A stretch of 64,000 nt of DNA, from NCBI RefSeq assembly GCF_900156725.1, contig NZ_FTOI01000004.1, positions 62,001-126,000 on the forward strand, written 5' to 3'. The translations under genes were made by a program, and so were the position numbers. This stretch comes from Kaistella chaponensis. Its GTDB lineage: Bacteria; Bacteroidota; Bacteroidia; Flavobacteriales; Weeksellaceae. Below, piece after piece: positions 4,347-60,482 of this stretch; position 1 is the stretch's first letter, and every line of letters begins with the position of its first letter. The notes below the pieces were generated by a model, which worked only from the letters and a program-made list of their open reading frames with translations, was not told the DNA's origin and did no database searches.

Positions 4347-4362
4347 AATGACGAAAGTCATT
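4347..4362. promoter_or_regulatory. Candidate Crp/Fnr-type box upstream of the copper trio
   Basis: AATGAC-GAAA-GTCATT is a perfect 6-4-6 inverted repeat whose core TGAC-N4-GTCA has the geometry of an FNR/CRP half-site pair. Its centre (4354.5) is 30.5 bp upstream of the first base of the -7 element, about -42 from the predicted transcription start, the usual place for an activator that replaces a weak -33. No TTG is present at the -33 position. Thirteen of 15 bases match the box upstream of ccoS. Confidence 0.55.
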
Positions 4363-4384
4363 TTCAATTCAGATAAATTAGTCT

Positions 4385-4392
4385 TAATTTTG
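4385..4392 (+). promoter_or_regulatory. -7 promoter element of the copper trio
   Basis: TAATTTTG matches TAnnTTTG. The ATG at 4402 follows 10 bases after it, so the transcript has almost no leader. No -33 TTG is visible at 17-23 bp, which suggests dependence on an activator. Confidence 0.5.
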
Positions 4393-4401
4393 AAAAATCA
4401 A

Positions 4402-4764
4402 ATGAAGGCCATTTTATCTATCATATTGTCCACGATTATTTTTACAGCAAGTTTCCAAAACTCGTTGTTTATGATTGATTATCAGATCAACCGCAAGTTT
4501 TATGAAATCCATTGTATCAACAAGTCGAAACCCGAAATGGATTGCCATGGAAAATGCCAAATGAAAAAGGAAAGCGAAAAAACTTCTAATCCTTTTAGTT
4601 TAGTAAAGTATTCTTTTGAATTTAATATTCTTCCTTCTGAGCCTGCAGCGTTTTCCCTGAAACCGCATGGTTCTTTAGATTTTGATTCTTCCGCTTATTC
4701 GTATTACGCTCAGAATATTTCTGAGGTTTTCTTGGATATTGTTCCGAATCCGCCCCAAATTTAA
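4402..4764 (+). CDS. Cys/Met-rich small exported protein of the copper trio
   Basis: A 120-residue protein starting at the ATG at 4402; the in-frame ATG at 4348 lies inside the upstream inverted repeat and ahead of the promoter element, so it is rejected. Residues 1-25 are a signal peptide or membrane anchor. A conserved-looking metal motif follows: H37-C38, then KPEMDCHGKCQMKK with M46, C48, H49, C52 and M54, a good soft-metal ligand set. The rest is low in recognisable features. Similar Cys-motif proteins occur next to Bacteroidota copper TonB receptors (from memory, not searched). With the following lipoprotein and receptor it probably forms one unit; a periplasmic or membrane copper-handling role is inferred. 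Confidence 0.7.
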   Translation: MKAILSIILSTIIFTASFQNSLFMIDYQINRKFYEIHCINKSKPEMDCHGKCQMKKESEKTSNPFSLVKYSFEFNILPSEPAAFSLKPHGSLDFDSSAYSYYAQNISEVFLDIVPNPPQI

Positions 4765-4877
4765 CTTGATTCTTCAGTGCAATTTCTTCTTTTTCTTCTT
4801 GAAATTGAAGCGATACCTTCATCTTTTATCCAAAGATTGAGGATTAATTTTCAAGTTAACATTTAAAATAAAAAACA

Positions 4878-5744
4878 ATGAAATTTTCATTCAAAATTCT
4901 ATTTGCCTTTTTGGCAATGGCTTTCGCAATCGTATCATGTAGAACTTCAGAGGGCGATGAACCAATATCACCCACTAATCCGAATACTGAAATTGAAGGG
5001 TTGACTAAAATTAAAGAAATCAGTAACGATACCCACATTATTGAATTGTATTCGAAATCGGGATCAACCAATTTGGGATACAATGATCTTAAATTGAGAT
5101 TGAAAAATAAATCGACCAATCAATATGAAAAAAATGCGACCATCGCTTGGACTCCGTTGATGCACATGACAATGATGACGCATTCTTGCCCGAAATCTGC
5201 GGTTGAGAAAGTAACATCAGATGGCTCTTTGTATTCTGGATATATCGTTTTCCAAATGCCTGGAAACGACACCGAATATTGGGATCTGAAAATAGATTAT
5301 ACCATCGGCGGAACCTCTTACACTGCAACTACTTTAATTAATGTTCCTGTTGAAAATAAAAAAACAGTCAATTCATTTTTGGGAAGCGATAATGTAAGAT
5401 ATGTGGTTGCGTACATCGAGCCGAAATCTCCGAAAGTTGCCATTAATGAGATGACTTTAGGGGTTTGGAAAATGCAGGATATGATGACATTTCCGGTTGT
5501 TGATGGTTACACCGTAAAAGTGGATCCAAGAATGCCGGGAATGGGCAATCACAGTTCACCCAATAATGTTCATGCAACACAAGCTGCGACGGGCAAACTA
5601 TACAATGGGAAACTTTCTTTAACCATGACTGGTTATTGGAAAATAAATCTTCAGCTGGCGAAAGCAGACGGAACTGTTTTAGGCGGCCAAGAAGTTACGG
5701 CAACCAATCTCGCAAGCAGTTTATTTTTCGAAATCGATTTCTAA
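4878..5744 (+). CDS. Met/His-rich copper-associated lipoprotein (FixH/YtkA-like repeats)
   Basis: A 288-residue lipoprotein: signal peptide and lipobox ending AIVSC21. Two Ig-like halves follow. The first carries M95-H96-M97, M99-M100, H102 and C104 around WTPLMHMTMMTHSCP; the second carries M219, M222, H225 and H232 around DPRMPGMGNHSSPNN. These clusters resemble the MxGMxH-type motif of YtkA/FixH-like domains and are good Cu(I)/Cu(II) ligands. It sits between the Cys-rich small protein and the TonB receptor with gaps of about 113 and 132 bases, so it is probably the surface or periplasmic copper-binding partner. Function inferred from motifs and context. Confidence 0.75.
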   Translation: MKFSFKILFAFLAMAFAIVSCRTSEGDEPISPTNPNTEIEGLTKIKEISNDTHIIELYSKSGSTNLGYNDLKLRLKNKSTNQYEKNATIAWTPLMHMTMMTHSCPKSAVEKVTSDGSLYSGYIVFQMPGNDTEYWDLKIDYTIGGTSYTATTLINVPVENKKTVNSFLGSDNVRYVVAYIEPKSPKVAINEMTLGVWKMQDMMTFPVVDGYTVKVDPRMPGMGNHSSPNNVHATQAATGKLYNGKLSLTMTGYWKINLQLAKADGTVLGGQEVTATNLASSLFFEIDF

Positions 5745-5876
5745 ATTTCGGTCCAATTCCTATTCAAAGCTCATTGAACGTTTATCCTTGATTGAGCTTT
5801 GATTTTCTCTCTTTTCAGTTGCAATTAATCTTTTATTGGAAGGTTAATGCAACCTCAACACCCAAAATTCTTTACA

Positions 5877-7868
5877 ATGAAACGAATGATCTTCATGAGT
5901 TTTCTTATCCTTCTGTTTTTTAATTTGAATGCGCAGGAAAGATTAAAAGATTCGATCACCGCTCAACATATTCAAGAAGTTATTGTCATCGGAACTACGA
6001 AAATTTCGAGCAAAGAAAATAAACCTTTAGGATCCATCGATGAATATTTGCAGAAATCATCGAAAGTCGATATGATCAAAAGAGGTGCATACGCTTGGGA
6101 ACCTCTCATCAACAGTATGCCGACAGAAAGAACTTTGGTCACCATCGACGGAATGCGAATTTTCGGAGCCTGTACCGACAAAATGGATCCTGTGACTTCT
6201 TATATCGAAGTTTCGAATCTCAAAGAAGCAACGATTGTTTCTGGTCAGGAAGGTTCCTGCCACGGAAATACCATTGGTGGAGCTCTGGATTTGAAGAGAA
6301 ACAAAATGATGTTCGGTCACACGAAATGGAATTTTAATGTCAACAGCGGTTTTGAAACGGTAAACAATCAAAAAATTTTTGGTGCCGGAACAAACTTTAA
6401 ATCAGAAAAATTCTACACCGATTTTAATTTTATGATGCGTGATGCCGACAATTATAAAGCAGGAAAAAATGTCGAAATCCCTTTTTCTCAATTTAAAAAA
6501 ATTAATGTTTCGGGAATTTCTGGGGTGAAGTTGGGCGAAAATAAACTTTTAGAAGCCGCAGTGATTTACGATAAAGCTACCGATGTAGGTTATCCTGCAT
6601 TACCAATGGATGTATCGATTGCAGAGGCATTGATCACCTCCTTGAAATTTCAAATTTTGTCCAAAAGCGATTTCTTTAAAAGCTGGGAAACCAAAGTTTA
6701 TTTCAACACCATTATGCACCGAATGGATGATACAAAAAGACCCAATGTTCCTATTCATATGGATATGCCGGGTTGGAGCAAAACTTTCGGATATTATTCT
6801 CACCTAAAAGCTGATTACAATCAACATCATTTTTTGCTTAATGTAAATGGTTTTTACAATAAATCTTCTGCAGAAATGACCATGTATCCTACCGATCGAA
6901 GTGAAAAATTAATGTTTATGCTCACTTGGCCCGATGTGAGAACGCTCAATCAGGGAGTTTACGTGGAAGATCAAATTAATTTTAATCAACATTCCAGTTT
7001 AAAATTATCTGTTTCAGCAGCGATACATCAAAATAAAATCGAAAGTGAGTTTGGTCTAAACAGTCTGCAGATTTTTTATCCAGAAATGAAGCCAGAAAAA
7101 TCCAGGGTTCTAAAAAGTTTTGCAGTGAATTATGAGTTTAATTCAAATGTATTTCAGGCAGGTTTCGGTTTAGGATATGGTGATCGAGCGCCATCTGTTT
7201 CTGAAGGTTACGGGTTTTATCTGTTTAATAGTTTCGAGAAATATGATTATATCGGAAATCCATATTTAAAAAATGAATCTTCTGTGGAAGCAAACGCTTT
7301 TTTGGGAATGAAACTAGAAAAGTTCAACGCGAAGGTTTCTTCCTCTTATTTTTACCTCTCCAATTATATTGTGGGGGAAATTTTAGAGAATCTTGTTCCA
7401 ATGACCATCGGTGCAAATGGAGTGAAAAATTATACCGCGCTAGATAATGCGACCATTTTCAACGTGAGTTTATCAACCGAATTGCAAATTGCTGAACTTT
7501 TGAAATGGTCTGCACAATTTGTTTACACCCGTGGAAAAGACAATCAGAATCAGAATCTTCCTTTTATGAGTCCTTTCAGTTATCAATCTTCATTAAAATT
7601 TGAAAAAAATAAATTTTCCAGTGAATTGGCGGTACATGGGAACGCCAAATATCAAGATTTTGCCGAAAAGTACGGCGAATCTGCAACTCCAGATTACCTT
7701 GAAATAAATGCGAGTTTAGGATATCTTTTCAAAATGAATAACAGTAAAATCCTCGCAAAAATAGGGGTAGAAAATATATTCGACCGGTTTTATACCACTT
7801 TTTCTGACTGGAATAAAATTCCAAGACCCGGTAGAAATTTCTTCTTGAATTTAAGTTTTAATTGGTGA
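5877..7868 (+). CDS. TonB-dependent outer-membrane copper receptor, OprC-like
   Basis: A 663-residue TonB-dependent receptor starting at the ATG at 5877, which gives a clean signal peptide (cleavage near NLNAQ20). The plug domain is at about 30-145, with RTLVTIDGMRIFGACTDKMD, and the beta-barrel follows, ending FFLNLSFNW with a terminal aromatic. It has both parts of the CxxxM-HxM copper site described for Pseudomonas OprC: C99-T-D-K-M103 in the plug and H281-R-M283 followed by D-D in the barrel (OprC family: HVMDN). This supports copper import across the outer membrane, powered by TonB-ExbBD encoded elsewhere. It is the third gene of the copper trio. Strong for receptor, good for copper. Confidence 0.88.
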   Translation: MKRMIFMSFLILLFFNLNAQERLKDSITAQHIQEVIVIGTTKISSKENKPLGSIDEYLQKSSKVDMIKRGAYAWEPLINSMPTERTLVTIDGMRIFGACTDKMDPVTSYIEVSNLKEATIVSGQEGSCHGNTIGGALDLKRNKMMFGHTKWNFNVNSGFETVNNQKIFGAGTNFKSEKFYTDFNFMMRDADNYKAGKNVEIPFSQFKKINVSGISGVKLGENKLLEAAVIYDKATDVGYPALPMDVSIAEALITSLKFQILSKSDFFKSWETKVYFNTIMHRMDDTKRPNVPIHMDMPGWSKTFGYYSHLKADYNQHHFLLNVNGFYNKSSAEMTMYPTDRSEKLMFMLTWPDVRTLNQGVYVEDQINFNQHSSLKLSVSAAIHQNKIESEFGLNSLQIFYPEMKPEKSRVLKSFAVNYEFNSNVFQAGFGLGYGDRAPSVSEGYGFYLFNSFEKYDYIGNPYLKNESSVEANAFLGMKLEKFNAKVSSSYFYLSNYIVGEILENLVPMTIGANGVKNYTALDNATIFNVSLSTELQIAELLKWSAQFVYTRGKDNQNQNLPFMSPFSYQSSLKFEKNKFSSELAVHGNAKYQDFAEKYGESATPDYLEINASLGYLFKMNNSKILAKIGVENIFDRFYTTFSDWNKIPRPGRNFFLNLSFNW

Positions 7869-7932
7869 TATCTTGGGATGTTTTTATGCTAAATATTGGG
7901 TTTTAAAAAATAGAAATCCAGTAAGTTTTCAG

Positions 7933-7940
7933 TAAATTTG
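7933..7940 (+). promoter_or_regulatory. -7 element before the GreA-like gene
   Basis: TAAATTTG matches TAnnTTTG, 22 bases before the ATG at 7963. No TTG at the right distance upstream. Confidence 0.4.
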
Positions 7941-7962
7941 TTAGCAACCAAACGAAAGTACA

Positions 7963-8406
7963 ATGAACAGGAAAGATCTTATCGGCAGAATTATAAGAGA
8001 ACAGATGAAAGTTATCGAAAGTTTGCAGCAGTCTGTAGAGCACTATAAAGCAGCGTCAGAGATTGATGAAGAAAGCACCCACGATCCGGAGGATTTCTCC
8101 AATCAGTCTGTCGCAAAAGATATGCAGCTTCTGTTCGAAAAAATGATGGCTGAAGCGCAACAGATCCTTCGATTTTTAGAAAAGGAAAGAGAGGTTGTGC
8201 ACACAGAAATCGAGAAGGGATGTTTAATAGAAACCGATAAAAATTTTCTTTTTATTGGTCTTTCTGTGCCCGTTATTCAAGTGGATGATAAAGAACTTAT
8301 TTCCTTTTCAGAACAGGCGCCGGTTTTCCTCGAAATCAAAGGTAAAAATCTCGGCGATTCTCTAACAGTAGGAAATGATACTTTGAAAATTCTGACTTTC
8401 AGTTAA
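7963..8406 (+). CDS. GreA/GreB-like small protein
   Basis: A 147-residue soluble protein. The first ~85 residues are strongly helical and charged (coiled-coil, as in the Gre finger), and the last ~55 (FLFIGLSVPVIQVDDKELISFSEQAPVFLEIKG) look like a beta-rich C-terminal domain of the Gre type. Bacteroidota carry a group of ~150-residue proteins of this shape, sometimes miscalled 3-oxoacyl-ACP synthase. Binding to RNA polymerase is possible but not shown by any residue here. It is a single gene with its own -7 element. Confidence 0.45.
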   Translation: MNRKDLIGRIIREQMKVIESLQQSVEHYKAASEIDEESTHDPEDFSNQSVAKDMQLLFEKMMAEAQQILRFLEKEREVVHTEIEKGCLIETDKNFLFIGLSVPVIQVDDKELISFSEQAPVFLEIKGKNLGDSLTVGNDTLKILTFS

Positions 8407-8444
8407 TCTTAAATAAGACTTCGTGATTCGTTGTCACATTCTCT

Positions 8445-8473
8445 TTGATACTCGGTTTAAAGGATTAATTTTG
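8445..8473 (+). promoter_or_regulatory. Promoter giving a long leader ahead of a lipoprotein gene
   Basis: TTG (8445-8447), an 18-bp spacer and TAATTTTG (8466-8473) form a near-ideal flavobacterial promoter. Predicted start is near 8480, 140 bases ahead of the lipoprotein ATG at 8622. The leader holds a 15-codon frame at 8487-8534 of higher GC than its surroundings. Confidence 0.55.
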
Positions 8474-8621
8474 TCAGGATATTACAATGCTTTTCTGCGG
8501 TCGTTATCGGCTTCGTATGGTGCTGTATTGGTAGTTTAGGAGGTATTTAAAGCAAATCTTTTTATGAATTTCTTTGTTTTTAATGCATGTAACGAAATAT
8601 TTTTAAAACAACTTTTTTATT

Positions 8622-8987
8622 ATGAAAAACTTATATATCGCGATTATCGCATTACTTTTTTTGAGTTCTTGTTCCAAAAGCGAACAAAATTCTTCAAGTT
8701 CTGCGGGCAGCAAAACTCCATCCACAGAAATCAGCCAAGTTCAGGAACCTTTGAAAATGAAAAACAGCAAGGGTGAAGAAATAAGCGTTACCTACTTTGC
8801 GCAAGGCGATGCCGTAGCTGTAAAAATTCAGAAAGCGGGTAAAAATGAAGAAAAACTTTCTGCGAAAACCAGTAATCCAGCAGGAAATCCTATCTTTTCT
8901 AATGAGAATTATATGTGGGAAATGACACAGGAAGGAAAAGGAGGCAAGTTGACTGATAAAGCAGGAAACGCATCAGAATATAAATAG
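8622..8987 (+). CDS. Small lipoprotein
   Basis: A 121-residue lipoprotein: short signal peptide and lipobox FLSSC17, a Ser-rich linker to about residue 45, then one compact domain (VTYFAQGDAVAVKIQ to the C-terminus, containing ENYMWEMTQEGKGGKL). The layout of a short beta domain with a Trp and a Gly-rich end resembles MliC-type lysozyme-inhibitor lipoproteins, but the match is weak and MliC cysteines are absent. Function unknown. It has an unusually long predicted leader and is followed at 9069 by the sulfur operon, which has its own -7 element. Confidence 0.65.
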   Translation: MKNLYIAIIALLFLSSCSKSEQNSSSSAGSKTPSTEISQVQEPLKMKNSKGEEISVTYFAQGDAVAVKIQKAGKNEEKLSAKTSNPAGNPIFSNENYMWEMTQEGKGGKLTDKAGNASEYK

Positions 8988-9009
8988 AAGCAGACAATTC
9001 ATAAATGAC

Positions 9010-9017
9010 TAATTTTG
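9010..9017 (+). promoter_or_regulatory. -7 element of the sulfane-sulfur operon
   Basis: TAATTTTG matches TAnnTTTG; predicted leader is about 45 bases. No clear -33 TTG. Confidence 0.45.
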
Positions 9018-9068
9018 CAAGGACCAAATTGAAATGTAAAATTTGAAAACATTTATAAAAGATAAAAA

Positions 9069-10478
9069 ATGAAGATAGAACAAATATATACAGGATGTCT
9101 CGCGCAAGGAGCATATTACATTGTCTCCGAAAATGAGGCGGTAATTATTGATCCGCTTCGGGAAACGCAACCTTATTTGGCTCGGTTAGAAAAGGATCAG
9201 GTGAAACTTAAATATATTTTCGAAACGCACTTTCATGCAGATTTCGTCTCTGGACATGTCGATTTATCAAAGAAAACCGGCGCTGAAATCGTTTTCGGAC
9301 CTACAGCGAACCCCGAGTTTGAAGCGATTATTGCAAAAGACAATCAGATTTTCGACATTGGAAAAATTAAAATTAAAGTACTTCACACTCCTGGTCACAC
9401 CATGGAAAGTTCTACCTTTCTTTTAATTGATGAAGAGGGAAAAGAAACTGCCATTTTTTCTGGTGATACCTTATTTTTAGGCGATGTTGGAAGACCCGAT
9501 TTGGCGCAAAAATCAGCGCAAATGACACAGGAAGAATTGGCTGGTTTGCTCTACGAAAGTTTACAAAGTAAAATTATGCCACTTGCAGACGATATTATCG
9601 TTTACCCAGCTCATGGAGCCGGTTCTGCATGTGGGAAAAATATGCAGAAGGAAACAGTGGATTCGTTGGGAAATCAGAAAAAAACCAATTATGCATTGAA
9701 TCAACCAAATAAAGAATCATTTGCTCGTGAGGTTTTAGACGGACTTTTGCCTCCACCGAAATATTTCGGGATGAATGTAGCGATGAATAAAGGCGGAATT
9801 CCCAGTTTTGATGAGGTCATGAAACATGGAAACAAGCCTCTATCTCCAGACAATGTTGAAGAACTCGTCGAACACGCAGGAGCATTGATTTTAGATACAA
9901 GAAACGCTACAGATTTTCACAAAGGATTTATTCCAAATTCAATTAACATAGGTTTGAAAGGTGATTTCGCACCTTGGGTCGGAGCGATGATTGTTGATGT
10001 AAAGCAACCGATCGTGTTGGTTGCAGATTTGGGAACTGAAGAAGAAGTGATCACAAGACTTTCCCGCGTTGGGTTTGATGAGGTTTTGGGATTTTTGGAA
10101 GGAGGTTTTGATTCCTGGAAAAATTCCGAAAAAGAAATAGATACCGTAAACAGAATCTCACCAGAAGAATTTCAAAAACAGTACAACGAAAATTCAATCG
10201 TATTTGATGTAAGAAAGGAAAGTGAGTACGAAGCTGAACATGTAAATGAGGCATTTGAAAGACCATTATCGAATATTAATGAATGGGCAAACTTGATCGA
10301 TAAAAACGAACATTTCTTCTTGCATTGTGCAGGAGGATATAGAAGCATGATTGCAGCGAGCATTTTAAATTCCCGTGGAATCAGAAATTTTAGTGAAATT
10401 GAAGGTGGATTCAATAAAATTAAAGAAACAACTGTTCCGAAAAGCACTTTCATGTGCCAAAGTAAAATTTTAAAATAA
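9069..10478 (+). CDS. Metallo-beta-lactamase/double-rhodanese protein, persulfide dioxygenase-like
   Basis: A 469-residue fusion. Residues 1-235 are a glyoxalase II/ETHE1-type metallo-beta-lactamase domain: THFHADFVSGH gives H54, H56, D58 and H63, followed by H110 (TPGHT), D133 (SGDTLF) and H182 (YPAHG). Rhodanese domain 1 (about 265-350) has VLVADLG where the catalytic Cys should be and is inactive; domain 2 (about 365-450) keeps it as C420 in HCAGGYRS. Related enzymes oxidise glutathione or protein persulfides to sulfite (family knowledge). Its TAA overlaps the next ATG by one base, starting a five-gene run of sulfur-carrier proteins. Substrate is unknown; Bacteroidota often lack glutathione, so a different thiol is possible. 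Confidence 0.88.
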   Translation: MKIEQIYTGCLAQGAYYIVSENEAVIIDPLRETQPYLARLEKDQVKLKYIFETHFHADFVSGHVDLSKKTGAEIVFGPTANPEFEAIIAKDNQIFDIGKIKIKVLHTPGHTMESSTFLLIDEEGKETAIFSGDTLFLGDVGRPDLAQKSAQMTQEELAGLLYESLQSKIMPLADDIIVYPAHGAGSACGKNMQKETVDSLGNQKKTNYALNQPNKESFAREVLDGLLPPPKYFGMNVAMNKGGIPSFDEVMKHGNKPLSPDNVEELVEHAGALILDTRNATDFHKGFIPNSINIGLKGDFAPWVGAMIVDVKQPIVLVADLGTEEEVITRLSRVGFDEVLGFLEGGFDSWKNSEKEIDTVNRISPEEFQKQYNENSIVFDVRKESEYEAEHVNEAFERPLSNINEWANLIDKNEHFFLHCAGGYRSMIAASILNSRGIRNFSEIEGGFNKIKETTVPKSTFMCQSKILK

Positions 10479-10849
10479 TGAAATTTAATATTTTTTTATA
10501 TCTAGGAGTTCTTGCTGCAGTATTTTTTTCATGTGCCACAAAATCTCATGCAGAAACGATTAATCCGGCCAATTTCAAAGAAATCGTAAAAAATCCGATT
10601 ACGACTTTAGTAGATGTACGAATCCCAGAAGAATTCAGTGAAAAGACTGCAAAAGGCGCAGTCAATATTCCTTTGGCTAAAATTGAAGATAATATCAGTT
10701 TTTTCAAAAACCAAAAAACCACAGTTCTTTTCTGTAACCGCGGCATTCAGGCTGAACAAGCCGTAGAAATTCTAAGAAAAAATGGGGTTGAAAATGTCTA
10801 TTTTGGTAAATCTTTAGATAATGTTGAAGCCATACAAAACGAAAAATAA
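10478..10849 (+). CDS. Rhodanese-like lipoprotein
   Basis: A 123-residue single-domain rhodanese. A lipobox at FFSC19 predicts anchoring in the cell envelope after export. The active-site loop is FCNRGIQA with catalytic C86, and the CH2A-like DVRIPEEF is present. It would accept or pass sulfane sulfur on the periplasmic side, while the next rhodanese is cytoplasmic. Translation is probably coupled to the previous gene through a TAATG overlap. Rhodanese fold is clear; the donor and acceptor are not known. Confidence 0.85.
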   Translation: MKFNIFLYLGVLAAVFFSCATKSHAETINPANFKEIVKNPITTLVDVRIPEEFSEKTAKGAVNIPLAKIEDNISFFKNQKTTVLFCNRGIQAEQAVEILRKNGVENVYFGKSLDNVEAIQNEK

Positions 10850-10857
10850 AATAGAAG

Positions 10858-11169
10858 ATGTTTGATTTTATTAAAAATATTTTTGCCAAAAATTCAGTTG
10901 ATTATAAAGAACTGATGAAAAACGGCGCGCAAATTATCGATGTTCGAACCCCGAGTGAATTCAGCAACGGAAACATTAGAAATTCTAAAAATATCCCTTT
11001 GCAACATCTTGCAGCTGAGATGAAAAAATTAGATTTGAAAAAACCGATTATTACTTGTTGTGCAAGCGGAATGAGAAGTGCTTCGGCAAAATCGTTGCTC
11101 CAACAAAATGGTTTCGAAGCTTACAATGGAGGTGGTTGGAGCAGCCTTGAAAATAAATTAAACAAATGA
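10858..11169 (+). CDS. Cytoplasmic rhodanese
   Basis: A 103-residue rhodanese domain with no signal peptide. It shows DVRTPSEFSNGNI and the active loop CASGMRSA with C68 (preceded by C67). Similar short rhodaneses (PspE/GlpE size) move sulfane sulfur between thiols. The stop overlaps the next start by four bases (ATGA), which implies a single operon with the membrane protein that follows. Confidence 0.88.
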   Translation: MFDFIKNIFAKNSVDYKELMKNGAQIIDVRTPSEFSNGNIRNSKNIPLQHLAAEMKKLDLKKPIITCCASGMRSASAKSLLQQNGFEAYNGGGWSSLENKLNK

Positions 11170-11375
11170 AAGCCTTGCTGAAAAATTGGGACTTAAGAAG
11201 AGCGCTTTACTTCATGGGTGGCCTTTTCTTTGTATTGATTGCGCTTAATGATCGGTCTTGGTGGATGATTCCGTTTGGACTTTATTTTATTGCGATGGCT
11301 CTTTTTAGATTTGGATGTGCTGCCGGAAATTGCAATGTTCCCTTTTCAGAAGAGGATTCGGAAGTTAAAAACTAA
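11166..11375 (+). CDS. DUF2892-like membrane protein
   Basis: A 69-residue protein with two predicted membrane helices (about residues 12-30 and 33-52) and two cysteines (FGCAAGNCNVPF) just after the second. Bacterial DUF2892/YgaP-type segments are often fused or adjacent to rhodaneses, which fits the two rhodanese genes immediately upstream. The Cys pair could take part in sulfur or thiol transfer at the membrane; that is inference. Confidence 0.7.
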   Translation: MKALLKNWDLRRALYFMGGLFFVLIALNDRSWWMIPFGLYFIAMALFRFGCAAGNCNVPFSEEDSEVKN

Positions 11376-11380
11376 ATCTT

Positions 11381-11388: not shown

Positions 11389-11415
11389 TAATGTTTAATC
11401 TCTTATTTTTTAATT

Positions 11416-11721: not shown

Positions 11722-11724
11722 AGG

Positions 11725-52746: not shown

Positions 52747-52751
52747 TGTTT

Positions 52752-54203
52752 TTAAAATTGAAGTTTGAATGGGCCTTCGAAATACGTTTTGAAAGTATCT
52801 AAAAGTTCCCCTTTATCATCATACACGCCGATGCTGATGTTCTGTTTTGAAAGTTTGATTTCGTTCACCGGGAAACTGATGTTTACGGTTCCTTTGGTGA
52901 TGTCGCCTTTCTTTATTTTTATTTTATTGGATTCGCTTAAGGAAACTTCTGCGTGTTGCGGTTCTAATACTTTAATCGTAATAATTTTATCTTTATTGCT
53001 TTTGTTTAAAAAAGTGTAGCTGTACGTATTGGTTATTTTTGCGTCGCGCACGAAGAATGAGGAACCTGCAGGTTTGATAAATTTGGCTTCTACATCGGCT
53101 CTGTTGTACATTAGGAATCCCATAAATGCGACCATTAATGCAAGTACAAAAGAATAGGCTTTCATTCTGGTTGTAAATTGGAACGGAATTTCTTTTTCAA
53201 TTTCATCTTCGGTGGCATATCTGATGAGTCCTGGAGGAAGTCCGGTTTTAACCATTACTTCATCACAAGCATCGATGCAAGCGGTACAATTCACACATTC
53301 TAGTTGTTGTCCGTCACGAATATCAATTCCGGTGGGACAAACGACAACACATTGGTTACAGTCAATACAGTCTCCTTTTCCTTCGGCTTTTCGATCTTCT
53401 CCTTTTCTCCATTTAGATCGGTTTTCTCCTCTTTTAAAATCATAATAAACGTTGATCGTTTGTTTATCAATCAAAACGCCTTGTAATCTCCCGTACGGAC
53501 AAACCAAAGTACAAACCTGCTCTCTGAACCACGCAAATGTGAAATAAAAAGCGCCGGTGAAAATAATCATGACAAGAAAACTGGTGAAATTGTTAAATGG
53601 ACCTTCCTTAATCATGGTAAAGACTTCCTGATAACCTACGATGTACATAAACATCCAGTGTGTGATGATTAAAGAAATAATAATGAATATTGACCATTTT
53701 AAGGATCGTTTCCATATTTTTTCAGTATTCCATTCCTGTCGGTCTAGTTTCATCTGTTTGTTACGGTCGCCTTCAATCAAATAATCGATTTTGCGGAAAA
53801 CCATTTCTAGGAAAATAGTTTGAGGGCAAATCCAGCCGCAAAAAATTCTACCAAAAACGACGGTAAATAAAATAACAAATACAATAGAAGTAATCGCACC
53901 TAAAGCAAGAATGAAAAAATCTTGTGGATAAAATGGTTGTCCGAAAATAAAGAAATGTCTTTCAACGATATTTATTAAAAGGAGCGGATTGCCATTAATT
54001 TTCAAGAAAGGAATTACGAAAAACAGTGCAAGTAGAACATAAGCCACAATATTTCTATAATTGGTGAACTTACCATGTGGTTTTCGTGGGAAAACCCAAA
54101 CTCGTTTCCCCGAATCGTCCATTGTTCCTACGGAATCTCTGAAATTTTCTGGTTCTATTACTTGTCCTTGTCCTCCTCGGAATACATTATCTTGTTCGGC
54201 CAT
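52752..54203 (-). CDS. ccoG: Cytochrome oxidase accessory protein CcoG
   Basis: A 483-residue membrane Fe-S protein (RdxA/FixG family). Four to five helices in the first ~240 residues, then two 4Fe-4S motifs: CIDCNQCVVVCPTGIDIRDG and CVNCTACIDACDEV, and a soluble C-terminal Ig-like domain. It is thought to reduce Cu(II) to Cu(I) for oxidase assembly. The terminator at 54226-54274 lies between it and ccoP. Confidence 0.92.
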   Translation of the reverse strand: MAEQDNVFRGGQGQVIEPENFRDSVGTMDDSGKRVWVFPRKPHGKFTNYRNIVAYVLLALFFVIPFLKINGNPLLLINIVERHFFIFGQPFYPQDFFILALGAITSIVFVILFTVVFGRIFCGWICPQTIFLEMVFRKIDYLIEGDRNKQMKLDRQEWNTEKIWKRSLKWSIFIIISLIITHWMFMYIVGYQEVFTMIKEGPFNNFTSFLVMIIFTGAFYFTFAWFREQVCTLVCPYGRLQGVLIDKQTINVYYDFKRGENRSKWRKGEDRKAEGKGDCIDCNQCVVVCPTGIDIRDGQQLECVNCTACIDACDEVMVKTGLPPGLIRYATEDEIEKEIPFQFTTRMKAYSFVLALMVAFMGFLMYNRADVEAKFIKPAGSSFFVRDAKITNTYSYTFLNKSNKDKIITIKVLEPQHAEVSLSESNKIKIKKGDITKGTVNISFPVNEIKLSKQNISIGVYDDKGELLDTFKTYFEGPFKLQF

Positions 54204-54225
54204 TTTTACATCTATTTAATAAAAA

Positions 54226-54274
54226 AAAACATAATTCGTATTCTTGAATCTTCTCGAATAGCGAATTATGTTTT
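54226..54274 (-). terminator. Terminator or attenuator between ccoP and ccoG
   Basis: AAAACATAATTCG (54226-54238) and CGAATTATGTTTT (54262-54274) pair perfectly over 13 bp. On the minus strand it follows ccoP and is followed by nine T residues, so it ends or limits transcription into the assembly genes. Confidence 0.8.
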
Positions 54275-54297
54275 CAAAGTAATATTGTTTTTAAATT

Positions 54298-55176
54298 TTA
54301 TTTCTCCCAGTTTGCTGGTGTTCCTTGTGGAGCTGCACCACCTTGAGCTGGAGTAATTGGATTTTGTTCCTGATTGATATGATAAACATAAGCTGCTACA
54401 TTTTGGATATCGAAACCGGTTAGAACTCCATTTTTTCCCCAAGCTTGCATGGTAGGATTATTTGGACTTCCGTTTTCAACCATGTGGAATACATTTTTAA
54501 ATAATGTTTTTTCCGGTTGATTGATCCATGCTTGATCGGTAAGATTTGGTCCAATTCCACCTTTTCCGCCATCACCGTGACAAGAAACGCAGTTTGTTTT
54601 AAAAACTTCCTGCCCCGCTGCAATATTATCCGGAGAATAAACCGCATTGTCTATAGTTGGAGGAGGGGTGTTTTTTACATATTCTGCGATGCTTGCAGTT
54701 TGAGCTTTGTATTCTGCATCATATTCTGTGCCTTGATGCGCAAAATCGGTCAAAAAGAAAGAAATCATATAAACAGCACAATAAGCAACTCCGAAATAGA
54801 ATAAACCAAGCCACCATTTTGGTAACTGATTGTCTAATTCCATAATTCCATCGAAACCGTGGTCGATTAGCAAATCCTGTTCTGTACTTGCTGTTTGTTT
54901 TTTAAATGCACTTTCATACAATCCCTTGAAATATGGGATTTTTTTTGATTGAAGATATTCTGCCTTTTGAGCGTCGGTTAAACTTTTGAATTTTTCATTT
55001 TCAATCAAGTCACCGATTGCATTTTGAATAAGGGCAAGAATTGTACTTATCACTGCTGTTCCCCAAAAATAAGGTGAAGACAGGAATGAGGAATTCTGTA
55101 CAAACATGTAATACATGATGAAAAGAATTACCAGTATAATAGCGATCGTTACGTAAACGGGGGATCTTTGTTTCAT
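54298..55176 (-). CDS. ccoP: cbb3 oxidase diheme-type subunit, single-haem CcoP
   Basis: A 292-residue membrane cytochrome c. Three helices: two near the N-terminus (about 8-50) and one at about 119-142. Only one haem c site is present, CVSCHGDGGKGG, with the distal Met likely in NPTMQAW; classical CcoP has two. The C-terminal end is Pro/Gly/Ala-rich. It carries electrons from the periplasm to CcoO. One-haem CcoP is known in Bacteroidota. Confidence 0.9.
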   Translation of the reverse strand: MKQRSPVYVTIAIILVILFIMYYMFVQNSSFLSSPYFWGTAVISTILALIQNAIGDLIENEKFKSLTDAQKAEYLQSKKIPYFKGLYESAFKKQTASTEQDLLIDHGFDGIMELDNQLPKWWLGLFYFGVAYCAVYMISFFLTDFAHQGTEYDAEYKAQTASIAEYVKNTPPPTIDNAVYSPDNIAAGQEVFKTNCVSCHGDGGKGGIGPNLTDQAWINQPEKTLFKNVFHMVENGSPNNPTMQAWGKNGVLTGFDIQNVAAYVYHINQEQNPITPAQGGAAPQGTPANWEK

Positions 55177-55197
55177 TTTATTTAGTTTTATATAAAA

Positions 55198-55389
55198 TTA
55201 CAAGTTTTTATCGTCAATATCATCTTCTAAAGGAGCATTTGCTTCTTCGTCATAATGTTTCTTAGACCTTGAAAAAACCCAAATTACGATTCCTAAAAAA
55301 AATATAAGAAAGAATATCATGGAGAAAGTTTGGTACAAACCAACATTTTCGCCATTTGCTAGAATATCTTTTATATTTTGAGGAATCAT
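55198..55389 (-). CDS. ccoQ: cbb3 oxidase small subunit CcoQ-like
   Basis: A 63-residue protein with one predicted helix (about 21-41, FSMIFFLIFFLGIVIWVF) and an acidic C-terminal tail. Size, topology and position between ccoNO and ccoP fit CcoQ. The match is based on place more than on motif. Confidence 0.75.
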   Translation of the reverse strand: MIPQNIKDILANGENVGLYQTFSMIFFLIFFLGIVIWVFSRSKKHYDEEANAPLEDDIDDKNL

Positions 55390-55404
55390 AATTTTGATTT
55401 TAAT

Positions 55405-57684
55405 TTATTTAGTACTTGCCGTTTTAATTTCGGTTGTTTTAATATCGGTTCCTAATCTTTGCAAATATGAAATCAAGGCTACGATCTCTTTTTTCTCAAG
55501 AGGGACGAAATTAGCACCTTCTTGTGCTTTTCTTTGAGCATAAGCTTCTTTCACATCGGCAGCTTCAGAATAGATCTGTTTTACGATAAACTTCGCCTGG
55601 TTATCTGCCCAGCTGTCAGCTGAATCGATTTGGGCTTGAGTGTAAGGAACATCAAACGTATTTTTCATCAGTTTGATTTTATCCACCATTTGGCTTCTGT
55701 CTAAATCTCTTGCAATTAGCCATGGGTATCTTGGCATAATTGATCCGGCCGAAGTTACTCTAGGATTTAACATGTGTTTGTAATGCCAAGAACTTGGGTT
55801 TTTACCGCCTTCTCGGTGCAAATCTGGTCCTGTTCTTTTCGAGCCCCACAAGAATGGTCGGTCATAAATAAATTCACCAGCTTTTGAATATTGCCCATTT
55901 TTACCATTAAATCGAACTACTTCATCTCTAAAAGGACGAATCATTTGACTGTGACAAGCATTACAACCTTCACGGATGTATAAGTCTCTTCCTTCTAATT
56001 CAAGCGGAGAGTAGGGTTTAACCGCTGCAATTGTTGGTACGTTATCTTTAATAGTAAGGGTTGGAACGATTTCTACAAATCCACCAATAGCAACTGCGAT
56101 AAATGAAAGTACTGTTAAAAGAATCGGAGTTCTCTCTAACCAAAGGTGTAGTCCTTCTCCCTCTTTTCTTTTCTTCGTTGTCGCAGCCAAAGCTGGTGCT
56201 TCTGCAGGAACATTTTTTTGGAAAGATCCGCTTCTTACTGTTGCTACTACGTTTACACACATTAAGATTGCTCCGGAAATATACAATAAACCACCTACAA
56301 ATCTCATTTGATAATAAGGAATAATCGCTGTAACAGTATCTAACCAGTTTTTATAAAGTAAGGTACCATCTGGATTAAATTGTTTCCACATTAGTCCTTG
56401 TGTAAATCCGGCAATATATAAAGGAACAGCATAGAAAATAATTCCTAATGTACCTAGCCAAAAGTGCCAGTTTGCTAATTTTACAGACCAAAGTTTAGTT
56501 CTCCACATAATTGGAAGAAGGTAATAAATCATACCAAAGGTTATGAATCCATTCCAACCTAGAGCACCAACGTGAACGTGACCAATTACCCAATCGGTAT
56601 AGTGACCAATTTTATTTAATGTTTTTGTTGCCAATAATGGTCCTTCGAAAGTTGCCATACCATAACAGGTAACTGCTACCACGAAGAATTTAAGTACAGG
56701 GTTTTCTCTCACTTTGTCCCATGCCCCTCTTAAAGTAAGAAGCCCGTTTAGCATTCCTCCCCAAGACGGTGCAATCAACATAATAGAAAATCCTGTTGCC
56801 AATGCTTGCGCCCAACCTGGAACGGCGGTGTATTGTAAATGGTGAGGTCCTGCCCAAATGTAAACAAAAATCAATGACCAAAAGTGAATAATTGATAATT
56901 TGTAAGAAAATACAGGCCGATCTGCAGCTTTAGGTAAGAAATAATACATCAAACCAAGTATAGGAGTTGTAAGGAAAAATGCTACTGCATTGTGACCATA
57001 CCACCATTGAACCAAAGCATCTTTCACTCCTGCATAAGCAGAATAAGATTTCCATCCGGTGAAAGTTAAAGGTACTTCTAAGTTGTTGATGAGGTGTAAC
57101 ATCGCTACAGCAACCCAGGTTCCTAAATAGAACCAAATGGCTACATATAAATGTCGCACTCTTCGGATTAATATGGTACCAATCATATTGATTCCGAAAA
57201 TAACCCAAACAACAGTGATTAAAATATCAATAGGCCATTCATGTTCTGCGTATTCTTTAGAAGTATTAATCCCCATTAGGAATGTAATAACTACCGCAAC
57301 AATCATTAATTGCCATCCCCAGAAATGAATCCAAGAAAGCACATCACTGTACATTCTCGTTTTTAGGAGTCTTTGCAAAGAATAATAAATACCCGCGAAC
57401 ATACCATTGCCAACAAATGCAAAAATTACTGCACTGGTATGCAACATTCTAATCCGGCCAAAACCGAAAGCACCATGCGTATTAATAAGCCCCTGCAAAT
57501 TACCGCTTCGCAAACTTACGATGGTTGCATCGTCTGTTCCGAAGAAATATTCGGGAAGTTCGGGATAAAATAGCATTAAAGCGGCAGTTAGTCCTAGCAA
57601 AAATCCGACAAGCCCGAAGACTACGGTTGCATAGAGAAACGCTCGCACAATGCTGTTGTCATAACTAAATTTTTGAGTTTCCAT
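55405..57684 (-). CDS. ccoNO: Fused cbb3 oxidase catalytic subunit CcoN-CcoO
   Basis: A 759-residue fusion of CcoN (about 1-470, about 12 helices, haem b and b3/CuB sites with His motifs such as MLHTSAVIF, WWYGHNAVAFF, GPHHLQY and DWVIGHVHVGALG) and CcoO (about 515-759) with one haem c, C574-NAC-H578 in CNACHSQMIRP. The fusion is typical of Bacteroidota. It is the oxygen-reducing core used at low oxygen, and it needs copper. Confidence 0.95.
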   Translation of the reverse strand: METQKFSYDNSIVRAFLYATVVFGLVGFLLGLTAALMLFYPELPEYFFGTDDATIVSLRSGNLQGLINTHGAFGFGRIRMLHTSAVIFAFVGNGMFAGIYYSLQRLLKTRMYSDVLSWIHFWGWQLMIVAVVITFLMGINTSKEYAEHEWPIDILITVVWVIFGINMIGTILIRRVRHLYVAIWFYLGTWVAVAMLHLINNLEVPLTFTGWKSYSAYAGVKDALVQWWYGHNAVAFFLTTPILGLMYYFLPKAADRPVFSYKLSIIHFWSLIFVYIWAGPHHLQYTAVPGWAQALATGFSIMLIAPSWGGMLNGLLTLRGAWDKVRENPVLKFFVVAVTCYGMATFEGPLLATKTLNKIGHYTDWVIGHVHVGALGWNGFITFGMIYYLLPIMWRTKLWSVKLANWHFWLGTLGIIFYAVPLYIAGFTQGLMWKQFNPDGTLLYKNWLDTVTAIIPYYQMRFVGGLLYISGAILMCVNVVATVRSGSFQKNVPAEAPALAATTKKRKEGEGLHLWLERTPILLTVLSFIAVAIGGFVEIVPTLTIKDNVPTIAAVKPYSPLELEGRDLYIREGCNACHSQMIRPFRDEVVRFNGKNGQYSKAGEFIYDRPFLWGSKRTGPDLHREGGKNPSSWHYKHMLNPRVTSAGSIMPRYPWLIARDLDRSQMVDKIKLMKNTFDVPYTQAQIDSADSWADNQAKFIVKQIYSEAADVKEAYAQRKAQEGANFVPLEKKEIVALISYLQRLGTDIKTTEIKTASTK

Positions 57685-57689
57685 ATAAA

Positions 57690-57893
57690 TTAATCACTTT
57701 TTTCTTCTGAAGGTATATCTAATTTCTGTTCTTTGTCACCTTTGTTTTTTACGATTTCTGATTCTAAAAGTATTCGAACTGCTGGTGATTCATCATCATC
57801 AAATTGGCCATTTCTAGCGCTTACTATAAAAATGATCAGAAAAACGACAGCTAATAAAACGCTGCAGAAAATCATTAAATATAGTATATCCAT
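57690..57893 (-). CDS. ccoS: CcoS-like small protein
   Basis: A 67-residue protein with one N-terminal helix (about 3-25) and an acidic tail; CcoS helps insert haem and copper into cbb3 oxidase. First gene of the operon, six bases before ccoNO. Its ATG is 8 bases after the -7 element, so the transcript is nearly leaderless. Confidence 0.82.
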   Translation of the reverse strand: MDILYLMIFCSVLLAVVFLIIFIVSARNGQFDDDESPAVRILLESEIVKNKGDKEQKLDIPSEEKSD

Positions 57894-57900
57894 AGCAATG

Positions 57901-57908
57901 CAAATTTA
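57901..57908 (-). promoter_or_regulatory. -7 element of the ccoS operon
   Basis: TAAATTTG on the minus strand (57908 to 57901), 8 bases from the ATG. A second copy lies at 57930 to 57923. The Crp/Fnr-type box centre is 39.5 bp upstream of its first base. Confidence 0.5.
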
Positions 57909-57941
57909 TTATAAAATTCATCCAAATTTACTCAAAAAATA

Positions 57942-57953
57942 TGATTTTCATCA
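57942..57953. promoter_or_regulatory. Candidate Crp/Fnr-type box upstream of ccoS-NOQP
   Basis: TGAT-TTTC-ATCA, the FNR core (TTGAT-N4-ATCAA) without the outer T/A. Read on the minus strand it is AATGAT-GAAA-ATCAT, which matches the copper-trio box in 13 of 15 bases. Confidence 0.65.
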
Positions 57954-58007
57954 TTTAATGTTAAAATAAGTTAATTTAAAATATTTCTAAATTAGGGTAA
58001 TTCATTT

Positions 58008-60398
58008 TTAACTGTTGATTTTGAAATATTTAGTGCTTCGCCACCATGTGGCAACTGATGTAAATGCAACAACGCTTATTGAACTGATCGGCATTAATAT
58101 CGCTGCAAAAAGTGGCGACATATGTCCTGTTACGGCAAAACCAAGTCCGATTATATTGTACATAAAGCTAATTGCAAAGGTTATTTTTACAATCATCATC
58201 GCATCTTTACAAAATTTCAAATATTTTTCAAAATCAACTAATTTAACTCCTGCCATGATTACATCAGACGACGGCGTAAAGGAGTTCGTGTCATCTGCAA
58301 CCGCAATGCCAACATTGCTTTGTTTCAAAGCTCCCGCATCATTTAAACCATCGCCAAACATGGCAACTTTGTGTTGGTGATCTTGTAAATTTTTTATGTA
58401 GTTCAGTTTATCTTCTGGACTTTGATTAAAAGCCATTTCCGTCACATTTGGAATCATGGTTTTTAATTTAATTTCTTCCGAAGAGTTGTCACCACTTAAA
58501 ATATGAATTTGATAACCATAAAGACTTTTAAATAAAGTTTTCAAATCATCTCGATATTCATTCTTGAAAATAAATTTCCCTAAAAATTCCTCATTTCTGC
58601 TTATATATACGGCGGTTTCCAAGCTTTTAGATCTTTGCCCAATCAACTTTGCGGAGCCAATTTTGTAATTCGTTCCGCGAACATTGGCTTCATATCCTTT
58701 TCCTGGAATTTCCCTGAAGTTTTCTACGGGAAAATATTCGTCCTCAACTTCCACAAAATTGTAAAGAGCCTTTGATAAAGGATGGTTTGAATTTTTTAAA
58801 AGTGACTTGATGTTTTTTAAATCAAAATCTGAAAAATCATTGCCCTCAAAATTAATATTTGATTTTTTATTGTGCGTAATCGTTCCCGTTTTGTCGAAAA
58901 CCAAAGTGTCAATTTTGGATATTTTCTCAATGGTCAAAGTGTCTTTTACATAAAATTTATTTCGACCCAAAATCCGCATGACATGTCCGAAAGTAAAAGG
59001 TGCAGACAAAGCCAATGCACAAGGACAGGCAATGATCAAAATCGCTGCGACCACTTGAAACATTTTTTCGAAATCAATTCTTCCCCAATAAATTCCGGCA
59101 ATTAATGTGATTGCTAAAATAATGAAAGTGAAATATTTTGAAATTTCATTGGTCAAATTATCGAGACCGGTTTCGTATTTTTTAAAAGCCTCCTTATTCC
59201 AAAGTTGGGTAAGGTAACTTTGATTCACGGTTTTGATGACTTCTAATTCTAAAGCTGAACCAATTTGTTTTCCACCGGCAAAAATTTTATCACCTGCTTT
59301 TTTAGGGATCGAAGCACTTTCACCTGTAATGAAACTGTTATCGATGTTTCCTTCCCCATTAATTAAAACTGCATCTACAGGAATAATTTCCTGATTCCGA
59401 ACCATTATTCGGTCGCCAATTTTTAAATCTGAAAGTAAAATATTGTCCTGTTTTCCATTGAAATCTACTTTTGTGACTGCAATCGGATAAAAGGATTTGT
59501 AATCTCGGTCATAAGAAAGCGCGCTGTAGGTTCTTTTCTGAAATAATTTCCCCAAAAGCATGAAAAATAAAAGCCCACACAAAGTATCGAAATAGCCAGC
59601 TCCATAGTTGGTTAATGTTTCGTAAATACTTCGTCCATAGAGCATTAGAATTCCTAGGACAATGGGAACATCAATGTTTACAATCTTATTTTTTAGACCA
59701 AACCAAGCTGATTTAAAGTAATCTGAGGCGGAATAAAATACAACGGGTGTTGCCAGCAAAAACATTAAAAAACGAAAAAGTGGTTTGTATTTATCCATCC
59801 AGAAATCGGTGGTTCCCATTACTTCTCCAGCATATTCCGGGTAGGAAAAAAACATACCGTTTCCGAATGCAAATCCTGCAATTGCCAATTTGATGACCAA
59901 GGTTTTATCTAAAAACTCTTCCTTTTTTTCTGCAGTTTCCAGATTGATTACCGGTTTGTAACCCAAGTTGCTTAGAAATTTCGCAAGTTCACTTAATTTT
60001 AATTCATTGTGATTGAATGAAATTTGAACGTTTTTCCGGGTAAAGTTCACCTGTGAATAATTGATGTTTGGGTTTAGAGTATGCAAACTCTCCAATAGCC
60101 AAATACAAGATGAGCAGTGAATGACAGGAATTTTGAAAGTGACAAGACTTGTGTTTCCTTCAGAAAAATCAGTTACTTTATCAAAAATTTCTTGGGTGTC
60201 GAGATAATCAAATTGGGAAATGTTATCATCATTGGGTCTGATTCCGGACCGTTTATTCAGTTCATAAAAATTGCCTAAATCATTAATATTCAGGATTTCA
60301 TAAACCGATTTACATCCGTTACAGCAAAATATTTTGTTGTCCAAAGAAATTCGCTCTTTTTCTATCTCCTGACCGCAATGAAAACAATTTTCTGACAC
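58008..60398 (-). CDS. ccoI: Copper-transporting P-type ATPase CcoI/CopA2
   Basis: A 796-residue P1B copper ATPase. N-terminal Cys pairs (C5-C8, C25/C26-C29) and a heavy-metal domain with H94-C95-SS-C98 precede eight helices. The membrane metal site is CPC in IIACPCALALSAP; phosphorylation motif DKTGTITH, HP in SNHPLSKAL, and GDGLNDAGAL follow. This type exports Cu(I) for cbb3 assembly. Its promoter region is shared with the divergent crp-like gene. Confidence 0.94.
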   Translation of the reverse strand: MSENCFHCGQEIEKERISLDNKIFCCNGCKSVYEILNINDLGNFYELNKRSGIRPNDDNISQFDYLDTQEIFDKVTDFSEGNTSLVTFKIPVIHCSSCIWLLESLHTLNPNINYSQVNFTRKNVQISFNHNELKLSELAKFLSNLGYKPVINLETAEKKEEFLDKTLVIKLAIAGFAFGNGMFFSYPEYAGEVMGTTDFWMDKYKPLFRFLMFLLATPVVFYSASDYFKSAWFGLKNKIVNIDVPIVLGILMLYGRSIYETLTNYGAGYFDTLCGLLFFMLLGKLFQKRTYSALSYDRDYKSFYPIAVTKVDFNGKQDNILLSDLKIGDRIMVRNQEIIPVDAVLINGEGNIDNSFITGESASIPKKAGDKIFAGGKQIGSALELEVIKTVNQSYLTQLWNKEAFKKYETGLDNLTNEISKYFTFIILAITLIAGIYWGRIDFEKMFQVVAAILIIACPCALALSAPFTFGHVMRILGRNKFYVKDTLTIEKISKIDTLVFDKTGTITHNKKSNINFEGNDFSDFDLKNIKSLLKNSNHPLSKALYNFVEVEDEYFPVENFREIPGKGYEANVRGTNYKIGSAKLIGQRSKSLETAVYISRNEEFLGKFIFKNEYRDDLKTLFKSLYGYQIHILSGDNSSEEIKLKTMIPNVTEMAFNQSPEDKLNYIKNLQDHQHKVAMFGDGLNDAGALKQSNVGIAVADDTNSFTPSSDVIMAGVKLVDFEKYLKFCKDAMMIVKITFAISFMYNIIGLGFAVTGHMSPLFAAILMPISSISVVAFTSVATWWRSTKYFKINS

Positions 60399-60428
60399 TT
60401 TTTATTAATTTCAACCCACAAAATTATA

Positions 60429-60442
60429 ACAAATATATTTGT
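60429..60442. promoter_or_regulatory. Symmetric double -7 element between ccoI and the Crp/Fnr gene
   Basis: ACAAATATATTTGT is a perfect palindrome that contains TATATTTG on both strands, so it can serve as a -7 element for ccoI (60437 to 60430) and, on the plus strand, for the regulator. It also overlaps the -33 TTG of the plus-strand promoter. Confidence 0.5.
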
Positions 60443-60469
60443 GTTAAGGTTTTAAAAACTCTATTTTTG
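60439..60469 (+). promoter_or_regulatory. Promoter of the Crp/Fnr regulator gene
   Basis: TTG (60439-60441), 20-bp spacer, TATTTTTG (60462-60469). Predicted start near 60476, 13 bases before the ATG. Confidence 0.5.
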
Positions 60470-60470
60470 C

Positions 60471-60482
60471 TGATAAATGTCA
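60471..60482. promoter_or_regulatory. Candidate Crp/Fnr-type box at the regulator's own start
   Basis: TGAT-AAAT-GTCA; read on the minus strand TGAC-N4-ATCA, one half-site from each of the other two boxes. It overlaps the predicted start of the regulator transcript (repression position) and its centre is 39.5 bp upstream of the ccoI -7 element (activation position). Confidence 0.45.

Follow-up and report, generated by a model that had tools for sequence, protein, structure and literature searches.

The Crp/Fnr proteins FNR, ANR and FixK, which control cbb3 oxidase genes in Proteobacteria, bind TGA...TCA palindromes, and DNR and NnrR are Crp/Fnr-type regulators of denitrification. Bacteroidota have an unusual promoter and, to our knowledge, few of their regulators have known sites. 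Here we analyzed a stretch of 64,000 nucleotides (nt) from the 3.04 Mb genome of Kaistella chaponensis (Weeksellaceae), NZ_FTOI01000004.1 positions 62,001-126,000, hereafter the window. In it, boxes of the TGA...TCA kind lie upstream of a trio of genes related to copper import, upstream of the cbb3 oxidase genes ccoS-NO-P, and between ccoI and the divergent gene of a Crp/Fnr-family protein, here called crp. The original prediction, built on these three boxes, placed copper import and the oxidase under joint control. Comparison with relatives makes it probable, in our view, that the protein encoded beside ccoI regulates its own gene and, in the manner of FixK and FNR, activates micro-oxic respiration, with the copper trio among its targets.

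The available part of PMC9723704 reports that the promoter element TAnnTTTG spans -12 to -5 in mapped promoters of Flavobacterium psychrophilum and that cbb3 and heme genes of this species are upregulated at low oxygen. A Flavobacteriales Crp/Fnr homolog, which may or may not be an ortholog of the window gene, is grouped with the carbon-responsive MalR in an excerpt of PMC8510549. Titles and abstract openings of the open-access papers that our searches listed contained no description of a Crp/Fnr box at Bacteroidota cco or copper genes.

Results

Boxes are paired with promoter elements above chance

All three predicted boxes are present in the sequence: TGACGAAAGTCA at 4349..4360 on the plus strand before the copper trio, TGATGAAAATCA at 57942..57953 on the minus strand before ccoS-NO-P and TGATAAATGTCA at 60471..60482, assigned to neither strand, between crp and ccoI. 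The copper and ccoS boxes agree in 13 of 15 bases, as had been claimed. Taken by sequence alone the box pattern is weak evidence. The window holds 12 exact matches, of which three had been put forward, against 5.0 expected by shuffling and 11 in the largest shuffle. In the whole genome the GAAA-type form TGAYGAAARTCA occurs nine times and its backwards pattern twice, with seven of the nine matches inside open reading frames (ORFs), which led us to reject the GAAA spacer as a mark by itself.

Pairs of box and TAnnTTTG (the -7 element) are more informative. With gaps of 18-40 base pairs (bp) between the two, the own genome yields 27 matches against one for the backwards pattern. Gaps of 22-24 bp account for nine of the 27, compared with the 2.2 that the other gaps predict (P = 4e-4), and gaps of 33-34 bp for five compared with 1.4 (P = 0.016, for a peak chosen after seeing the data); relatives are not independent, and P values throughout ignore shared descent. 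A search for box-N22-25-TAnnTTTG in 13 chosen genomes (eight of the genus, five of other genera) gave 87 matches and three backwards. As the backwards control does not match promoter frequency, the dependence on the gap is the better evidence. Together with conservation in relatives at the crp, ccoI, ccoS and copper promoters, these gap statistics place the boxes above chance, and the three boxes of the window look selected. That they are chance palindromes in AT-rich promoters, as the surplus of matches in the window and within reading frames might suggest, is very improbable: half-sites are conserved where spacers change, and the 13-genome counts at one spacing already contradict it.

The crp gene encodes a conserved Crp/Fnr-family protein

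The regulator gene (60489..61202, plus strand) encodes 237 amino acids (aa). Domains PF00027, PF13545 and PF00325 score over their cut-offs and the best solved relative is 2gau, assigning the predicted protein to the Crp/Fnr superfamily with a cyclic-nucleotide (cNMP)-binding-type sensor domain and a Crp-type helix-turn-helix. Its closest named orthologs are from Kaistella gelatinilytica (92%) and K. jeonii (91%), very near records possibly being omitted. The protein stays below the curated cut-offs for Fnr (80.8 of 228 bits), CRP (76.9 of 266) and FixK (54.7 of 300), and that for NtcA is not reached either. In the family set, 148 genomes searched for the regulator, the copper lipoprotein, nosZ and Crp2 (a second Crp/Fnr protein encoded beside nosZ), orthologs of the regulator occur in 145.

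Glu and Arg of the recognition helix read TGA half-sites. The earlier statement that the regulator keeps this pair is borne out in its helix region TREEIANIIGTATESAIRLI: E199 and R203 are invariant in 39 of 39 aligned proteins (41 sought, two not extracted), as are the residues TATES-IR, where one position varies once.

The crp-ccoI box lies at a putative repression and an upstream position

Counts for named relatives refer to the best 80 of 186 crp loci found. All 80 have the box and, abutting it, a TAnnTTTG element of crp; in the window this element, TATTTTTG (60462..60469, plus strand), ends 1 bp before the box. The family search yielded 30 oriented loci, the own genome's among them, and all 30 have the crp box. 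Among 20 order-level crp loci, taken from 38 genomes with a match in other families of Flavobacteriales, 13 have an exact box within 350 nt upstream. Altogether the 80 named loci contain 196 exact boxes in 692 kb, 80 of them at crp and 69 at ccoS. With TAnnTTTG at -12 to -5, as in the F. psychrophilum promoters, the crp box would span about -3 to +9, a repression position, and its overlap with the predicted crp start suggests autorepression.

In a further set of 40 loci (nine of the own genus and 31 from 29 other genera) crp has ccoI as a neighbor in 37 and ccoI, ccoS and ccoNO in 34. Exact boxes occur upstream of ccoI in 31 of 37 cases and upstream of ccoS in 20 of 34, whereas 3.6% of 130-nt windows drawn at random from these loci contain one; allowing one mismatch adds ten ccoS regions and one ccoI region, a level that 15% of random windows reach. 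Of the three crp loci without adjacent ccoI, L106 and L135 keep the box by the crp -7 element and L107 does not. As the box is thus retained without the ccoI neighbor in two of three such genera, it would also be autoregulatory.

Seen from the other side, the same box lies upstream of ccoI, which encodes a ccoI-type heavy-metal P-type ATPase (58008..60398, minus strand). A TAnnTTTG element of ccoI stands at gap 43 (41 loci) or 44 (39 loci) in all 80 named loci; the copy in the window is TAATTTTG (60419..60426, minus strand), at gap 44, which puts the box center at about -62.5. The original prediction had measured 30.5 bp from box center to element at the copper trio and 39.5 bp at both ccoS (farther element) and ccoI. 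These distances are correct as measured, but the element chosen at ccoI, TATATTTG (60430..60437, minus strand), is not the conserved one: its gap, 33, recurs in 6 of the 80 loci. Since the conserved element lies about one turn further, the equal distances are coincidental and we discarded them as evidence.

Box positions at ccoS follow helical steps

Of 79 named ccoS loci, 69 have an exact box. The window has TAAATTTG twice on the minus strand, at 57901..57908 (gap 33) and at 57923..57930 (gap 11). In the 69 boxed loci the farther element stands at gap 33 in five, 34 in 11 and 35 in 52, and the closer element, already remarked on in the original prediction, is at gap 11 in every one. This closer element possibly marks a second promoter, which the box, at about -30 relative to it, would block. 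Like the crp box over its predicted start, this would suit a box that is chiefly a repressor site, by which crp, ccoI, ccoS and the copper genes are repressed when oxygen is plentiful. We regard such a role as improbable, since the copper trio and the nos, globin and heme genes (below) have the box at the distance of class II activation and elsewhere it is placed at steps of about one turn.

The ccoS gap of some other genera is shorter, 23-25 bp. The 148 genomes contain 52 cco-type class II sites, of which 19 or more belong to ccoS (14 from a single genus), and in four of six order-level loci with ccoS the box is 23-24 bp before TAnnTTTG. The gaps of about 24, 34 and 44 bp, corresponding to box centers near -42, -52 and -62, differ by about one helical turn, as would fit an activator that needs one face of the DNA. 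The class II position (about -41.5) itself is found at the copper trio and at ccoS of some other genera, not at ccoS (about -52) or ccoI (about -62) of the window.

Downstream of this promoter, all on the minus strand, follow ccoS (57690..57893, 67 aa, named by position and in the original prediction), a ccoNO fusion for cbb3 oxidase subunits I/II (55405..57684), a ccoP-like gene (54298..55176, named by match and position, with 82.5 bits against a ccoP cut-off of 180) and ccoG (52752..54203). Upstream of the ccoS box lies the palindrome-like TTTAGAAATATTTTAAAT (57974..57991, minus strand), and visual inspection shows a palindrome-like stretch TTATTTAGAnnnnnTTTTAAATTAA at this place in many genera. 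With a Fur-like reading of TTTAGA...TAAAT in this region no regulon was seen, the own genome having two matches against four backwards; the other match precedes what we take to be an mreB-like gene.

The copper-import trio carries the box at a class II position

Twenty-one trio loci were found at 59% identity or more. One of them, L057, has neither the first gene of the trio (ORF1) nor the box. Of the 20 promoters with ORF1, 19 have the box at a gap of 23-25 bp, 16 exactly and three with one mismatch; these three (L058, L059, L061) are from one genus and have an exact box also at gap 46. The box center is therefore near -42, the position of a class II activator. In the window the -7 element TAATTTTG (4385..4392, plus strand) is 24 bp from the box, centering it at about -42.5. 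Spacers of the copper boxes vary (GAAA, CAAT, GTAT, TATA, GCTT, CGCA and others) and the half-sites are constant, as expected of a binding site under selection. Among the distant trio loci L064-L072, an exact upstream box is present in L065 and L066 and absent from the other seven; in L065 no TAnnTTTG follows the copper box.

All three genes are on the plus strand. ORF1 (4402..4764, 120 aa) has no Pfam family that we could find and contains a CHGKC motif that is kept in 20 of 20 of the above loci having ORF1. Its location recalls that of CruR, the copper-responsive leader of Bordetella. ORF2 (4878..5744, 288 aa) has a lipoprotein-like start and a weak YtkA-like domain (25.3 bits, cut-off 25.9). 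The third gene (5886..7868) encodes a TonB-dependent receptor related to the copper importer OprC, in which CxxxM (residues 96-100) and HxM (278-280) are kept. The solved relatives found for it are OprC entries only, with low similarity (E = 3.7e-14), and it scores 117.5 of the 472 bits required for the NCBIfam copper-receptor family TIGR01778.

The copper trio tracks nosZ

The copper lipoprotein is present in 31 of the 148 genomes at E <= 1e-20, 21 of which hold clear orthologs. nosZ, the gene of nitrous oxide (N2O) reductase, scores over its cut-off in 19 of these 21 against 50 of the 148 overall (hypergeometric P = 9e-9, uncorrected for descent); one of the two exceptions, G057, is a fragmented draft of 460 contigs. 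Distant trios included, 24 of the 31 genomes have nosZ and 22 have Crp2. Within the genus, nosZ is in 11 of 11 trio genomes against 17 of 21 (P = 0.035).

As the trio tracks nosZ and the regulator is nearly ubiquitous in the family, the oxidase alone does not explain the copper link. Joint control as originally predicted thus gains support from boxes that are conserved and non-random, but copper demand of the oxidase is insufficient as its reason. The co-occurrence links copper import to N2O reduction, even though the copper promoter mostly uses the cco dialect described below, and N2O reductase is as likely a reason for it as cbb3 oxidase. The stricter claim that the imported copper serves N2O reductase rather than the oxidase would agree with the co-occurrence and with the proposal, in the available part of PMC8610252, that the OprC relative NosA loads NosZ; the same source cites a P. 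stutzeri strain in which NosZ was unchanged after loss of nosA. Given also the box dialect of the copper promoter, and that cbb3 too needs copper so that both purposes are compatible, we rate this claim at somewhat less than an even chance.

A wider regulon with two box dialects

We read the genes downstream of 69 class II matches, the 87 above minus nine of the own genome, which were read separately, and nine copper promoters of relatives. A class II box precedes the cytochrome c gene in front of nosZ in all 11 nosZ-bearing genomes of the 13, own included. Other recurring genes are those for a globin (five), a 398-aa membrane protein (four), hemA (three), hemN (two) and Crp2 (three, own included); in NCBIfam and Pfam scans of a single example per gene, no match was obtained for the 398-aa protein and the other names were borne out. 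This content resembles FNR-type regulons of low-oxygen respiration. Many of the remaining matches, before unrelated genes or within genes, may be due to chance.

The boxes differ in their spacers, which are AT at ccoS and frequently contain G or C at nos, globin, 398-aa protein and crp2 boxes. A log-odds score over the six middle box positions, with each site left out in turn, is above zero for 20 of 20 ccoS sites (two below 1) and below zero for 21 of 23 nos-type sites. The crp box, which was outside the training of the score, is of cco type, scoring +7.8 or, in the ccoI direction, +2.7; the AT-spaced copper box of the window (+3.6) belongs to the same type. The five hem boxes, at -0.4 to -6.5, are between the classes or on the nos side. 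Among 26 exact copper boxes, 21 score +1.6 to +8.6, that of L062 is neutral (-0.2) and four score -8.3 to -10.2; the four are second boxes of L046, L053, L054 and L060, each 23 bp downstream of a cco-type box. All but one (L062) of the 19 box-bearing trio promoters have at least one exact cco-type box.

Of the 50 nosZ genomes among the 148, 30 have a class II site of the nos type at 632-723 bp upstream of nosZ and none has a cco-type site there; the nos pattern was partly built from sites before nosZ in 11 genomes, and the site is found in eight of these 11 and in 22 of the other 39. Sites of the nos dialect occur in 33 of 46 Crp2 genomes and 61 of 148 overall. They occur in 28 genomes without Crp2, so that this dialect is not a clean mark of Crp2.

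Several single matches were observed besides. Tyrosine phenol-lyase/tryptophanase-like genes have a class II box in four of the 13 genomes (L195, L197, L206, L142). At C16:273721-273793 of the own genome (L087, L088) one box is shared by two divergent promoters with -7 gaps of 22 and 23 bp; the gene divergent from Crp2 here is presumably polyphosphate-kinase-like. Six box-plus-promoter matches fall within 18 kb at G008:C1:693925-712151 (L167, L170-L174), most of them before open frames that are small or unrelated. L210 (G004:C1:2050555-2051798), a gene for a membrane protein with weak likeness to CopD, has a nos-type class II box and is perhaps another copper gene under such sites.

Which protein reads the copper box

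A number of observations weigh against assigning all these sites to the regulator beside ccoI. Several of the own genome's 27 box-plus-TAnnTTTG matches fall in genes, and even with one mismatch allowed a box is missing from four of 34 ccoS and five of 37 ccoI regions. Seven of the 20 order-level crp loci lack the exact box, and genome G003 has lost it at the copper lipoprotein gene and at crp, along with ORF1. No FNR-type cysteine cluster was found in the 237 residues of the regulator, whose one cysteine, C97, is kept in 27 of 39 aligned proteins; it is possibly a FixK-like protein without cofactor that is controlled by its own level. Crp2, which likewise keeps the helix Glu and Arg, is present in 20 of the 21 clear trio genomes, and the exception, G030 (L052), has trio and regulator, yet no box, nosZ or Crp2.

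The last points raise the alternative that mainly Crp2, or both paralogs, read the copper box and that the regulator beside ccoI is limited to cco and itself. Four copper promoters from three genera indeed have a nos-type box at gap 23. This alternative nevertheless appears unlikely to us, considering that the cco dialect marks 21 of the 26 exact copper boxes (the others being the neutral one and the four second boxes) and nos-type sites are nearly all of opposite sign. Moreover, nos-type boxes do not follow Crp2 cleanly, and G102 has a copper box and no Crp2 match at E <= 1e-25, with no TAnnTTTG found after that box.

A tentative extension is that the copper promoter integrates demand by reading two Crp/Fnr dialects, an idea we hold to be possible though rather doubtful. 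The class II position is taken by a nos-type box, with a cco-type box exactly 23 bp upstream of it, in three genera, represented by G012, by G024 and G047, and by G013; a fourth genus (G011, G040, G057) shows a pair likewise spaced by 23 bp whose second box is degenerate and cco-like. If true, copper uptake would be set by whichever enzyme, cbb3 oxidase or N2O reductase, is being built, and not by a copper sensor alone.

Discussion

In the model we favor, with the regulator beside ccoI as the predicted reader of the boxes, its dimer would bind TGAYNNNNRTCA. At crp the site covers the predicted start, and binding would repress the gene and provide negative feedback. At ccoS-NO-P, ccoI and the copper trio the boxes lie upstream of TAnnTTTG at helical steps, at about -42 (copper, and ccoS of some other genera), -52 (ccoS here) and -62 (ccoI), from where the protein would activate. 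The OprC-like receptor would then be made together with copper-using respiratory enzymes. By analogy with known systems, the signal would be low oxygen.

These data provide a concrete site, a promoter geometry and a candidate regulator for micro-oxic respiration in Weeksellaceae and parts of Flavobacteriales, and they tie outer-membrane copper uptake to the demand of copper enzymes. They suggest that in a group of soil and water bacteria copper uptake is switched on with the respiratory enzymes that need copper. Because nosZ is present in about a third of the family genomes (50 of 148), its control and the supply of its copper are relevant to a greenhouse gas. The existence of two box dialects offers a way to test how paralogous Crp/Fnr proteins keep to separate targets.

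Among described systems, DNR/NnrR is approached by Crp2, encoded near nosZ, and by the nos-type boxes before the nos cytochrome c gene; these bacteria belong to another phylum, and the likeness of Crp2 is one of gene position and boxes. The receptor resembles OprC and NosA, TonB-dependent copper receptors expressed without oxygen, in keeping the CxxxM and HxM ligands. In the part of PMC8610252 available, this CxxxM-HxM copper motif is described and NosA is linked to NosZ. Unlike them, the window receptor is encoded in a trio, together with a CHGKC protein and a lipoprotein that is YtkA-like. Bordetella CrtA shares TonB-dependent copper import for heme-copper oxidases; according to the accessible text of PMC12914433, its control is post-transcriptional, by copper via CruR, and its operon partners are others.

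The control of cbb3 by FNR, ANR and FixK is matched here by a Crp/Fnr protein and by a box upstream of the cco genes. The negative autorepression stated for FixK2 in the part of PMC9104804 available is like that proposed for crp. Differences from these proteobacterial systems are the lack of an FNR cysteine cluster, the short TGAY half-sites, the Bacteroidota TAnnTTTG promoters and a regulator gene that is divergent from ccoI in most loci examined. Overall, the control described here is best read as a variant of the FNR/FixK type.

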